This document shows, piece by piece, positions 2,443 through 9,030 of a DNA stretch of 37,846 nt (positions within the stretch are counted from its first letter, which is position 1; each line of letters begins with the position of its first letter). A program made the position numbers and the translations under genes. Location of the stretch: NCBI GenBank assembly GCA_022566355.1, contig JADFJB010000032.1:1-37846 (forward strand). Direction: 5' to 3'. The stretch comes from a candidate division KSB1 bacterium (GTDB taxonomy: Bacteria > Zhuqueibacterota > JdFR-76 > DREG01). The notes beneath the pieces are model-generated. The model saw only the letters and a list, made by a program, of their open reading frames with translations, had not been told where the DNA came from and made no database searches.

Positions 2443-3381
2443 TTAGTTGCTCTGGTATTCCTTTGTTCTATCTTTCCTGCGGGCAAGCTCACTGGTGTAG
2501 TGTTTACCAAGTTTATCAGCATGTTTACGAACCCAGCCAGTTAGTTTTGTTTCTCCTGCAGGAGGTGAGTCCACGGCAAGAAGGCCGGCCATCAATCCCT
2601 TGATTTCTTCACGAGTTATCATTACATCACCAACGCACTTGCCGAGAATCCAGCCGGCGATAAACCCAACAGATGGAGGTACAGAAATAATAAGTCTTTT
2701 CTTTCCGATTATCTCACCAATAACTTTGACTAACTTTCTGTAGGTGAAGGTTTCCGGACCGATGGCATCTATAAAAACATTGTCTCGCTTAGCCCCTTGC
2801 TCGACGGCAAGGGAAGCCATATCGTCCACATAGATTGGTTGTAGACGGGACTCACCACTTCCGAACACACCAAACACTGGGAGCCGTCGCAAGGCCCACG
2901 CAATGTTGTTGATAAGTATGTCCTCTTTTCCAAACAGGACTGTTGGGCGAAGTATAGCGTGTGAAACACCTGAATCTATCAACGCTCGTTCGAGTTTCGC
3001 TTTTCCGCTGAAGTACTCTAGCGGTGAATCTTCAGACGGGTTCGTTATGCTAACATGGACAATTCGTTCAACATTAGCAGCTTTAGCTGCATCAAACAAA
3101 ACCATGGTGTTTCTGACTGCATCAGCATGCTGGAACAACTTATGATTGAATCGAACCCAGTATGTGTTATAAAGTACGGATACACCTTGAAGCGATTTTG
3201 CAAGTACTTCTGGCTTGTCAAAGTTGAACGGGTATGGCTTAACTCGACCATTGAACGGATTCGCACGATTAACAGAATTGGTCAAAGTGATGACTTTGTG
3301 ACCTCGATCAAGAAGTCGCTTAGCAATATACTTTCCTGAATATCCGAAAGCGCCCGTTACTGCATGTAGAGTCTTTTTCAT
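2443..3381 (-). CDS. NAD(P)-binding SDR/NmrA-like protein
   Basis: A 312-residue atypical/extended short-chain dehydrogenase of the NAD-dependent epimerase / NmrA-like group. The Rossmann signature GAFGYSG (G10, G13, G16) is at the N-terminus, followed by a typical VSITNPSEDSPLEYFSGKAKLE segment with Tyr and Lys in the place of the SDR YxxxK-like region, ILRPTVLFG, and IYVDDMA in the substrate-binding half. There is no signal peptide, so it is cytoplasmic. Candidate roles are an oxidoreductase/epimerase or a redox-sensing nucleotide-binding protein related to the NDUFA9-like complex I subunit. The substrate is not predictable. It is transcribed alone, convergent with the amidohydrolase. Its last codons run into the pyrimidine-rich repeat block, so the C-terminal residues may be less conserved. 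Confidence 0.85.
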   Translation of the reverse strand: MKKTLHAVTGAFGYSGKYIAKRLLDRGHKVITLTNSVNRANPFNGRVKPYPFNFDKPEVLAKSLQGVSVLYNTYWVRFNHKLFQHADAVRNTMVLFDAAKAANVERIVHVSITNPSEDSPLEYFSGKAKLERALIDSGVSHAILRPTVLFGKEDILINNIAWALRRLPVFGVFGSGESRLQPIYVDDMASLAVEQGAKRDNVFIDAIGPETFTYRKLVKVIGEIIGKKRLIISVPPSVGFIAGWILGKCVGDVMITREEIKGLMAGLLAVDSPPAGETKLTGWVRKHADKLGKHYTSELARRKDRTKEYQSN

Positions 3382-3784
3382 GCTCTCCTGTAACTAACTC
3401 GTTAGAGGCTAGAGATTAAAGACTAGGAAAAGAAACAGAGGCACAAAGAAAAAACTCTGCAGGATTCTCTAATCTCTATCCTCTTGAGGTATAAGGTATA
3501 AACAAATTACAAATTACAATACACAAATAACAAATAAATCACAAAGACGAAATTTCAAATTACCAGACATGGGCGGGATCTATTTCCATACATTTGAAAA
3601 AGCTGCATGATAGGCATAAAAATATATTAAAAAGATCATTTCCTCGATTAACAGTGATAAGGTTTATGGATAGTTCAAGTTAATTACAAATGCTTGATTC
3701 TGATCTTTGCTTGAATTAATTTTTATTCGATTTCGAACAAGAAATTCATCAATAAGTACGATAGATCAGGATTCATCAATAAAC
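3382..3784. other. Low-complexity intergenic region
   Basis: No gene is supported. A TTG-initiated extension of the downstream reading frame covers the right end but does not resemble NadE. The DNA holds a degenerate A-rich text (tandem-like ACAAATTAC, AACAAATAA words at about 3500-3545), a CAGAGGCACAAAG word shared with 34.73 kb, and repeat family A copy 2 at 3651-3686. Confidence 0.6.
3651..3686 (+). repeat. Dispersed repeat family A, copy 2
   Basis: Same segment as 91-127 in the same orientation, with two substitutions in 36 bases. It lies about 100 bases upstream of the nadE start, so it is in the likely promoter or leader region. No function is evident. Confidence 0.75.
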
Positions 3785-6266: not shown

Positions 6267-6671
6267 TGAGGATTGGGTTAATCTTTGAGCCTTTTCTGCA
6301 TAAAGTTTGATTCTAAAATTGTGTGTGTTTTTCTACTGTAGATAATCCAAAGCAAAGAATAACGGTAGGGTATTATCATTTCTGTTTTTAAGTACTGAAG
6401 TAAAATTAGCACTAATTTTTATTGATTCCCCGAGGCACTTCATACCCAAGTGCTAACCATTTTTTTAACTTGACAAAAAAGAACTTTGTGGTTATCTTCG
6501 GTTAATTCCTCAATACAATAATCCATTTGGGAATCCATGGAAACCTTGAACTACAACAACCTCAAATTATCACAATGATGGTTGAACTACGATGATTTAT
6601 ACACATGTTATCAATATAGGGCGTTTAGGGGTTAGGAGCCCTACGAATAACACGATGTAGTTATGAGACGG

Positions 6672-6805
6672 TATTACGCAACATGCAATATTGTGGCATA
6701 ATACACAATGAGGAAACAACTAAATGTATAGATTACTTTTTAAAAACCAACTGGTTATACATCAAACTAATGTTGGTATTATAGAACACAGCCCGTTGCG
6801 TAATA
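6672..6805. repeat. Inverted-repeat-bounded 134-base segment (MITE-like)
   Basis: TATTACGCAAC and its exact reverse complement GTTGCGTAATA bound a 134-base non-coding segment. The shape suits a miniature inverted-repeat element or a relic of one. No clear target-site duplication was seen next to the ends, and no related transposase is in the window. Confidence 0.45.
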
Positions 6806-6811
6806 TCTAAA

Positions 6812-6845
6812 TTATGTGTCACATATTATTATGTTGGACACATAA
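6812..6845. promoter_or_regulatory. 9-base dyad before the CcbP-like gene
   Basis: Perfect arms TTATGTGTC and GACACATAA with a 16-base spacer. The right arm overlaps the start of the purine-rich AAAGGA (6844-6849), the best ribosome-site candidate for the ATG at 6863. As RNA the hairpin could hide this site; as DNA it could be an operator. Both are inferences from position. Confidence 0.4.
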
Positions 6846-6862
6846 AGGATACGGTGCATAGT

Positions 6863-7231
6863 ATGGGCAGAATTCCAGAGGATGCAGATAAAGAATATCG
6901 GATTCATGATGAGGCCGTTGTTAACGCATATGGAGAAGAAGAACGAGCAATGGGTTGGTATTACTACATGGATGACAAGCTTCATTGTCCTTTTAATGCG
7001 AAATGTATTGCAAAACGTAGAATTTCACCTTGACAAGAGGGAGAAGACGTTGAAGTTCAAGGGATGGCTCCAGAAGATGAAAGTATGAAGGAAATCTTTG
7101 TTGAGATTAATTGGCAAGGGAGATCATTCGCAGTACCTTTAGCACAATTAAAAGCGATTGACGTTGATGATGAGACGCAGGAAGCAATTGAAGACTGGCA
7201 TTACTGGGTAGGTAGAGGATACCAATATTGA
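6863..7231 (+). pseudogene. CcbP-like calcium-binding protein, in-frame UGA
   Basis: The frame starting MGRIPEDADKEYRIHDEAVV carries the family text AYGEEERAMGWYYYMDDKL, FNAKCIAKRRISP and, after a stop, VEVQGMAPEDES, FAVPLAQLKAIDVDDETQEA and IEDWHYWVGRGYQY. This is the CcbP family of acidic calcium-binding proteins known from cyanobacteria. Codon 57 (7031-7033) is TGA, and the second half continues in exactly the same frame for 65 codons to TGA at 7229-7231, so this is a nonsense change, not a frameshift. Family members, as I recall them, have Leu there (ISPL), so TTA or TTG to TGA is one substitution. The product would be a 56-residue fragment unless read through. The rest of the gene shows no decay, so the stop is recent, suppressed, or a sequence error. 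A DUF2293 gene starts 3 bases after the stop. Confidence 0.75.
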
Positions 7232-7234
7232 CAA

Positions 7235-7900
7235 ATGAAACAAAGTAATGATTTAAAAGTTTTTATTTCAAATCGGGATTTCACATGTGATGATTGTGGT
7301 GAAAAATTTGGACGCAAATCATGGATTACGTTGCAAGAAGAAAAGGGGGCATTGTGTCTAGTATGTGCTGATCTGGATCACCTAATTTTCCTTCCTTCAG
7401 GAGATACAGCACTCACTAGGCGAGCACGAAAATACTCCACGTTAGTTGCTATCGTCTTAAAGTGGAGTCGTGCACGAAAACGGTATGAAAGGCAAGGCTT
7501 GTTAGTTGAAGAACAAGCATTGGATCAAGCTGAAGAGGAATGTTTAGCAGATAGTGAAGTGAGGGATCGTAGAAAAGAACGTGCTGCACAGAAAAGAGCA
7601 GAAATCGATGAGCAGTATGTACAGGTTTTTGCAGAGAAAGTACGTAAACTTTTTCCTGGTTCTCCTCTTGGTAGGGAAAACATTATTGCTGAGCATGCTT
7701 GCTTTAAATACAGTGGTCGTATTGGTCGTACTGAATCAGCTAAAAAACTAGATGAAGAAGCCATACTACTAGCTGTTGTTGCACACATCCGTCATACCGA
7801 AACGAAATATGACGAATTTCTGTCAAAAGGTTATGAGAGGAGAGAAGCCAGAGGCCAAGTAGAGGAGAAGGTTCACAAAATCTTAAGGGAGTGGAAATAG
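7235..7900 (+). CDS. DUF2293 protein with N-terminal Cys4 knuckle
   Basis: A 221-residue protein of unknown function. Residues 17-45 hold two CxxC pairs (C18/C21 and C41/C44) that look like a small zinc ribbon. Residues 60-135 are a highly charged Arg/Glu/Lys helical region. Residues 130-215 match DUF2293, with FPGSPLGRENIIAEHA, SGRIGRT, AVVAHIRHTETKYDEFL and REARGQVEEKV. The zinc knuckle and the basic helices suggest nucleic-acid binding, but that is inference. It begins 3 bases after the CcbP-like stop and probably shares its mRNA. No good Shine-Dalgarno is seen, so it may depend on translational coupling, which the UGA upstream could disturb. Family members I recall are scattered in distant phyla, which suits horizontal transfer. 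Confidence 0.8.
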   Translation: MKQSNDLKVFISNRDFTCDDCGEKFGRKSWITLQEEKGALCLVCADLDHLIFLPSGDTALTRRARKYSTLVAIVLKWSRARKRYERQGLLVEEQALDQAEEECLADSEVRDRRKERAAQKRAEIDEQYVQVFAEKVRKLFPGSPLGRENIIAEHACFKYSGRIGRTESAKKLDEEAILLAVVAHIRHTETKYDEFLSKGYERREARGQVEEKVHKILREWK

Positions 7901-8238
7901 AATCCTCTTCAAAATCGATCAAGCGGAGCATGTCCAACAAACACATTCACCTGAGCTGGGGATTAGTTAGCACTTTTTCCAACATTATCAACAGATTCAT
8001 AGTTTATCTCTTTTTCCAAGAACATCGTCCCCCAGGCAGGTGATGTAAAGGTTATATGTTGGGAATAAGTCCCGATATATGAACGTAAAAATAGCACATG
8101 CTTTCTCATTCTAGTCTCCGGAATTGTGGCTAAATATGCAGAGGAATTTTGTGAATATGCGTTCTGGGATTAGTACAACTGTGGCCCTTCGGCTGTTCAT
8201 TATAAGCAACAATACAAAGTGGAAATTTGTCTTGCCTC
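7901..8238. other. Intergenic, no gene seen
   Basis: No reading frame or RNA gene is supported. Near its left end TGTCCAACA (7931-7939) is the exact reverse complement of TGTTGGACA (6832-6840) upstream of the CcbP-like gene, so the two-gene cassette is bracketed by a 9-base inverted repeat about 1.1 kb apart. Both flanking genes point into this stretch, so no promoter is expected. Confidence 0.45.
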
Positions 8239-9030
8239 TCACTTCAAAACATAAAACTCTGTGCGTCGGTCATCAAACAGATTGTTGCGGTCAGTGAACC
8301 ATTTGTCCCGGGTTAACTTTGGGTGGATTTTTTCGACATGAAATTCATGCTTCTCTTTTGAGGCTGAATACAGCACGTTTCCTTTACAATCGGAGATCTG
8401 GCTGCCGCCGGTAAAATACAGGGGTTTCTTTCCGCCGCGGGCTTCGAACCCGGTTCGGTTGGCTACAACGGTATACACCTGGTTCTCGATAGAACGCGTC
8501 ACCATAGCATTTTGGCAGTAGGGGGTTAATAAGTTCGCAGGCAGGCAAATGATGTCCGCGCCTTGTAATGCAAGTGTTCGGGTGGCTTCGGGAAAGATCC
8601 AATCGAAACAGATAAGCACGCCGATTTTTGCAGGACCAATGTCCACCACCTGCAAGGGGATATCGCCGGGTGCGAAAAAGTCTTTTTCTTCATAGAATAA
8701 ATGCAACTTGCGATATTTTGCCATTACCCCTTTTGGATTGAGCACTACTGCAGAATTGTAGAAAACGTCGCCGGATCGTTCGGGCAGCCCGGCAACGATC
8801 ACGCAATCTTTGTCCTTTGCAATTTGAGTCAGCCTTTTTATGGAAGGCCCGGAAGGGATCTCTTCAGCAAGTTCTTCGATTTCATGGTGGTTGACGAATT
8901 GATAGCCGGATGTGCAAAGCTCGGGTAAAACCACCAAATCAACCGGAGGCTGTATCTCCGCTTCGATTCTATCGAGGTTATGTTTTGCCGCGCCAAATTT
9001 TGGTTCAAATTGAACAATCCCGACTTTCAT
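8239..9030 (-). CDS. Carbon-nitrogen hydrolase (nitrilase superfamily)
   Basis: A 263-residue single-domain amidase-type enzyme that hydrolyses non-peptide C-N bonds through a Cys nucleophile. The triad is intact: E37 in VVLPELCTSGYQF, K108 in YRKLHLFYEEKDFF, C141 in VLICFDWIFPEATR. Length is typical. The PELCTSGY and FDWIFPE text is close to the omega-amidase / N-carbamoyl hydrolase-like bacterial branch, but substrate is not assignable. There is no signal peptide. The ATG at 9030 is preferred because AGGAGG ends about 5 bases before it. A GTG six bases earlier abuts that ribosome site and is unlikely. Single gene, divergent from the S4-domain gene. Confidence 0.93.
   Translation of the reverse strand: MKVGIVQFEPKFGAAKHNLDRIEAEIQPPVDLVVLPELCTSGYQFVNHHEIEELAEEIPSGPSIKRLTQIAKDKDCVIVAGLPERSGDVFYNSAVVLNPKGVMAKYRKLHLFYEEKDFFAPGDIPLQVVDIGPAKIGVLICFDWIFPEATRTLALQGADIICLPANLLTPYCQNAMVTRSIENQVYTVVANRTGFEARGGKKPLYFTGGSQISDCKGNVLYSASKEKHEFHVEKIHPKLTRDKWFTDRNNLFDDRRTEFYVLK

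Follow-up and report, generated by a model that had tools for sequence, protein, structure and literature searches.

What does it mean when a gene is intact in every respect except for one in-frame stop codon? The question is posed by a ccbP-family gene in the 37,846-nucleotide stretch of DNA analysed here (‘the window’), which belongs to a candidate division KSB1 bacterium. The stop might be read as an amino acid, leak, be an error of the assembly, or be what it appears to be, a nonsense mutation. We favour the last, and consider it likely that a recent nonsense mutation struck an accessory ccbP gene carried in an integron-cassette-like unit beside the remains of an integrase. Three features define the interruption:

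6863-7231, plus strand: interrupted open reading frame (ORF) of the ccbP family (PF11535), from ORF reading, profile match and relatives
7031-7033, plus strand: premature TGA, codon 57 of the ccbP ORF; 42 relative loci have Leu or Val here
7064-7231, plus strand: 55-codon ORF from an in-frame ATG 3' of the stop, a weak candidate for a product of reinitiation

The ORF starts at 6863 with MGRIPEDADKEYRIHDEAVV... and, past the TGA, runs in the same frame for 65 more codons to a C-terminal end (IEDWHYWVGRGYQY) and a TGA of its own at 7229-7231. With the stop translated as X, the protein matches the PF11535 profile (Calci_bind_CcbP) at 137 bits (E 4.2e-40; cut-off 21.5 bits), its residues 13-116 aligning with profile positions 2-105 of 105. 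Because the match spans these positions, homology extends to both sides of the stop. Neither reading of the frame nor comparison with the nearest relative, on contig L008, revealed a frameshift, another stop or wider decay. The earlier note had described a CcbP-like gene whose sole break is one in-frame TGA, and the ORF reading and the profile match agree. The gene thus carries the domain of the CcbP family without the uninterrupted frame, owing to the TGA at codon 57; by the standard code it is a broken member of that family. Its protein finds no second match anywhere in its own genome.

The residue that once stood at codon 57 is readily surmised. Among matches from other genomes and contigs, 42 distinct loci span the site once own copies, duplicates and second paralogues are removed; the aligned residue is Leu in 40 of them and Val in the other two, mostly within the motif SP[L]. 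The L008 protein, 80% identical, has the codon TTA there, from which TGA is reached by one T-to-G change, and the two genes differ in length only by one whole codon near codon 99. This family alignment upholds the earlier note's statement that relatives have Leu at the site, one base from a stop. It also disposes of two other candidates, namely that relatives end naturally at codon 57 and that the site is one of conserved readthrough, since none of the 42 loci has a stop there.

The stop also appears to be young, because both parts of ccbP show constraint over decay when compared with L008. The ratio omega is 0.14 before the stop and 0.33 after it (small counts), and both parts seem to have been constrained through most of the period after the window and L008 copies split. 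We considered relaxed constraint past the stop as the reason for the higher downstream value; the numbers of changes are too low to tell. The suggestion that the stop may be very recent has held up: a recent nonsense mutation fits best, given Leu or Val in relatives, constraint, and no decay.

ccbP is followed, 3 nt past its stop and in the same frame, by a second gene:

7235-7900, plus strand: open DUF2293 gene (PF10056), from profile match

The 3-nt gap is kept in L008, with TATTGACAAATG between the genes in both copies. Homology between the window and L008 DNA is confined to one block (6833-7876 versus 2471-3517, 82% identical), and both genes lie inside it. The earlier note missed this pairing of ccbP and DUF2293 in one unit with cassette-like edges. 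No DUF2293 gene was detectable beside other ccbP loci among the loci fetched. L008 is listed under Caldisericaceae; being no more than a short contig from a metagenome bin, it has an uncertain host. Its likely genes are all on one strand, and its DUF2293 gene is ended by a premature TAA (L008:3461-3463), beyond which the frame is still homologous. The ccbP-DUF2293 unit thus appears to have been hit by nonsense changes in two lineages, each time in a different gene. At synonymous sites, divergence from L008 is ~0.3-0.4 in ccbP (6863-7228) versus ~1.2 in DUF2293 (7235-7897), which suggests a mosaic history, or else constraint on the synonymous sites of ccbP. The context TTGACAA surrounds both the premature (7030-7036) and the natural (7228-7234) stop of ccbP, and with DUF2293 starting in the ccbP frame, two readthroughs would yield a CcbP-DUF2293 fusion; the shared context and common frame are probably a coincidence. 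No viral contig matched that would point to a viral origin, and PADLOC gave no match that would point to a defence function for the pair.

The edges of the unit resemble those of integron gene cassettes:

6833-6839, plus strand: GTTGGAC core, putative cassette start (G^TTGGAC), at the exact start of L008 homology
7932-8058, plus strand: attC-like site with GTCCAAC, imperfect inverted arms, and G^TT at 8058-8060
6656-6838, plus strand: segment with 70% identity to contig C35:2257-2437; its end is close to the cassette start

GTTRRRY is the core of integron recombination sites (PMC3053210). GTTGGAC conforms to it, and opens the homologous block in both the window and L008. Its exact complement, GTCCAAC, occurs at 7932, 3' of DUF2293, with arms TCACCTGAGCTGGGGA / TCCCCCAGGCAGGTGA and outer arms TTTCCAACAT / ATGTTGGGAA. 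Folded as the bottom strand, this site pairs its cores and arms around a long loop, modestly better than shuffles do (z -1.9); when 7901-8239 was shuffled 20,000 times with dinucleotides preserved, GTCCAAC together with equally good or better arms arose 8 times. At the 3' end, the final G is followed by TTGGGA, the last position of which, A rather than a pyrimidine, breaks GTTRRRY. In L008, four intergenic regions were folded: two gave attC-like hairpins that beat shuffles by a wide margin (z -3.0 and -5.6), and two did not. From these several signs (the GTTGGAC start, GTCCAAC with its arms, the fold and the L008 hairpins) we infer that the ccbP-DUF2293 unit (~6834-8058) is an integron gene cassette. 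The stretch at 6656-6838 is possibly an attI or attC-like site. The window shows no second recognizable attC-like site and no identified attI, and none of it matched a known RNA element in Rfam. Nor was an empty site seen in relatives: in the flanks fetched, the downstream neighbour gene does not sit beside homologues of the upstream gene. An interspersed intergenic repeat around GGGAATCCATGGAAACCTTG occupies 6491-6556, and copies 80-84% identical occur on contigs C14, C86 and C35.

Upstream of the cassette genes, on the same strand, lies what remains of an integrase:

6586-6660, plus strand: C-terminal remnant of an integron-integrase-type gene, reading TTMIYTHVINIGRLGVRSPTNNTM and then a stop, from frame reading and relatives' ends

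A profile search gives a weak match here (6571-6648 against profile positions 288-313 of 315, E 3e-4, with one TGA), and intact integrases of relatives have C-terminal ends like it (e.g. TTMIYTHVLNRGGLGVRSPLDAVQ). No integron integrase scored above the family cut-off in this genome, which holds only fragments and matches below that cut-off. One such relic is on contig C15 (TTMVYTHVLNQGGRGVRSPVDRIK), where the integron-integrase gene (L075:1300-2510) is frameshifted; genes that by eye resemble a HigB-HigA toxin-antitoxin pair follow on the same strand. Integrases above the cut-off were found in 34 of the 79 genomes searched, including one member of the same family. Because the intI of that member appears to stand alone, the window remnant may likewise derive from a solitary intI rather than from a full integron. 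Elsewhere in the phylum, intact IntI-type integrases at four loci (L132, L137, L140 and L141) have on their 3' side a conserved small gene noticed by eye (reading like AKTIIAGQPGTQKW...GDSLVCVRYKYD); integrase and small gene may together be a distinct mobile element whose recombinase resembles IntI.

Could the TGA be something other than a nonsense mutation? That UGA is read as an amino acid throughout the genome, or as selenocysteine specifically at codon 57, has in its favour the open frame beyond the TGA and nothing else. Release factor RF2 is present and uninterrupted in the genome, and neither SelB nor tRNA-Sec was found there above cut-off; the best SelB-profile match (191 bits, in a 400-codon frame) is, judging by size, probably EF-Tu. 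ARAGORN, applied to 40 tRNA places from the Rfam model, found no UCA anticodon, in a set that is incomplete (expected tRNAs for His and Ile are missing from it); tRNA-Trp has the anticodon CCA, and five tRNA-Leu species are normal. Of 21 window genes drawn from the ORF list, five end in TGA. Those 21 genes (10,188 codons) have no internal TGA, an absence that follows from the definition of an ORF and has its weight in full-length genes being complete without TGA. At codon 57 itself, relatives have Leu rather than Cys, which speaks against selenocysteine. RF2, the SelB and tRNA-Sec searches, the tRNA set and the TGA-ended genes lead us to reject this candidate; UGA recoding here is very unlikely, and we accord it next to no probability. 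Every test of recoding was negative, and the earlier note's case against a genome-wide change, argued from genes that end normally in TGA, is confirmed.

More modest departures from normal termination are also improbable, if less so. A useful amount of full-length CcbP might be made by leaky readthrough, or two half-proteins by reinitiation at the ATG at 7064. The stop is UGA followed by C, a weak termination context, the frame past it is still constrained, and the ATG is only 11 codons beyond. UGA is the leakiest stop in Escherichia coli, where it is read mostly as Trp (PMC11126739), and traces of full-length CcbP might plausibly arise by analogy. However, relatives lack a stop at the site, so there is no conserved recoding, a recent mutation accounts equally well for the intact downstream frame, and by eye no good ribosome-binding site stands at normal spacing before 7064. 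We regard useful readthrough or reinitiation as a long shot. The more elaborate proposal, that leaky UGA-C or half-proteins make the UGA tolerable and give a Ca2+-binding protein that is split or limited in dosage and is translated in coupling with DUF2293, is if anything slightly less credible. The main rival to a recent nonsense mutation is an artefact, in which the organism's own ccbP is intact and the TGA comes from a miscalled consensus base or from a minority strain, the assembly being fragmented. In its favour are the single base at stake, an otherwise intact gene and a genome split into 213 contigs. On the other hand, nothing else in ccbP resembles an error, the L008 copy of the unit has a nonsense change of its own, and the region already has a broken integrase. 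We judge an artefact unlikely on balance, with a chance well above those of readthrough and recoding.

Returning to the recent nonsense mutation, events can be pictured as follows. If the ancestor had TTA, as in L008, a single T-to-G change would have turned a Leu codon into TGA. Translation would now end after 56 residues, with approximately the first 45 of 105 profile positions kept; because this product lacks more than half of the domain, CcbP function is, from the sequence, most likely lost. DUF2293 would stay open, and its translation may drop if it depends on ribosomes reaching the ccbP stop 3 nt upstream. No integrase able to move the unit was found in the genome. We take the TGA to be real in the organism and to inactivate the protein, and the accessory cassette context to be the reason the loss is tolerated. 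ccbP is probably accessory and dispensable here, and the window copy probably an ordinary, young pseudogene. Against loss of function, wider decay of ccbP is missing, and without it nothing independent proves the loss.

The premature TGA alone changes nothing about the organism's genetic code. Its value is as a clear-cut case in which a single point mutation has cost a gene, here within an apparent stranded integron cassette, and the cassette-like context, which would tie calcium-binding proteins of the CcbP type, along with DUF2293, to the pool of cassettes, is more interesting than the pseudogene.

Among characterized proteins, the window ccbP product matches CcbP (Alr1010) of Anabaena sp. 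PCC 7120 over residues 2-122 (E 2.2e-32). Structures of Alr1010 have been solved (PDB 2k2v, 2p0p, 2p0q and 3urg), and it has Thr aligned at codon 57, where the window copy has TGA. Anabaena CcbP binds Ca2+ and has a reported role in heterocyst formation (PMC7065334). An integrase that shares its strand with the cassette genes is a layout known from Treponema (PMC3607928); the window has the same strand order, but its integrase is a C-terminal fragment only, and its layout may be secondary. Unlike integron cassettes in general, the unit comes with a single recognized attC-like site across the window and without an identified attI, and its genome holds no intact integrase. Like integron cassettes with attC, it has a GTTRRRY-type start, common to the window and the L008 array, and a candidate RYYYAAC-type site with a putative hairpin past the last gene.
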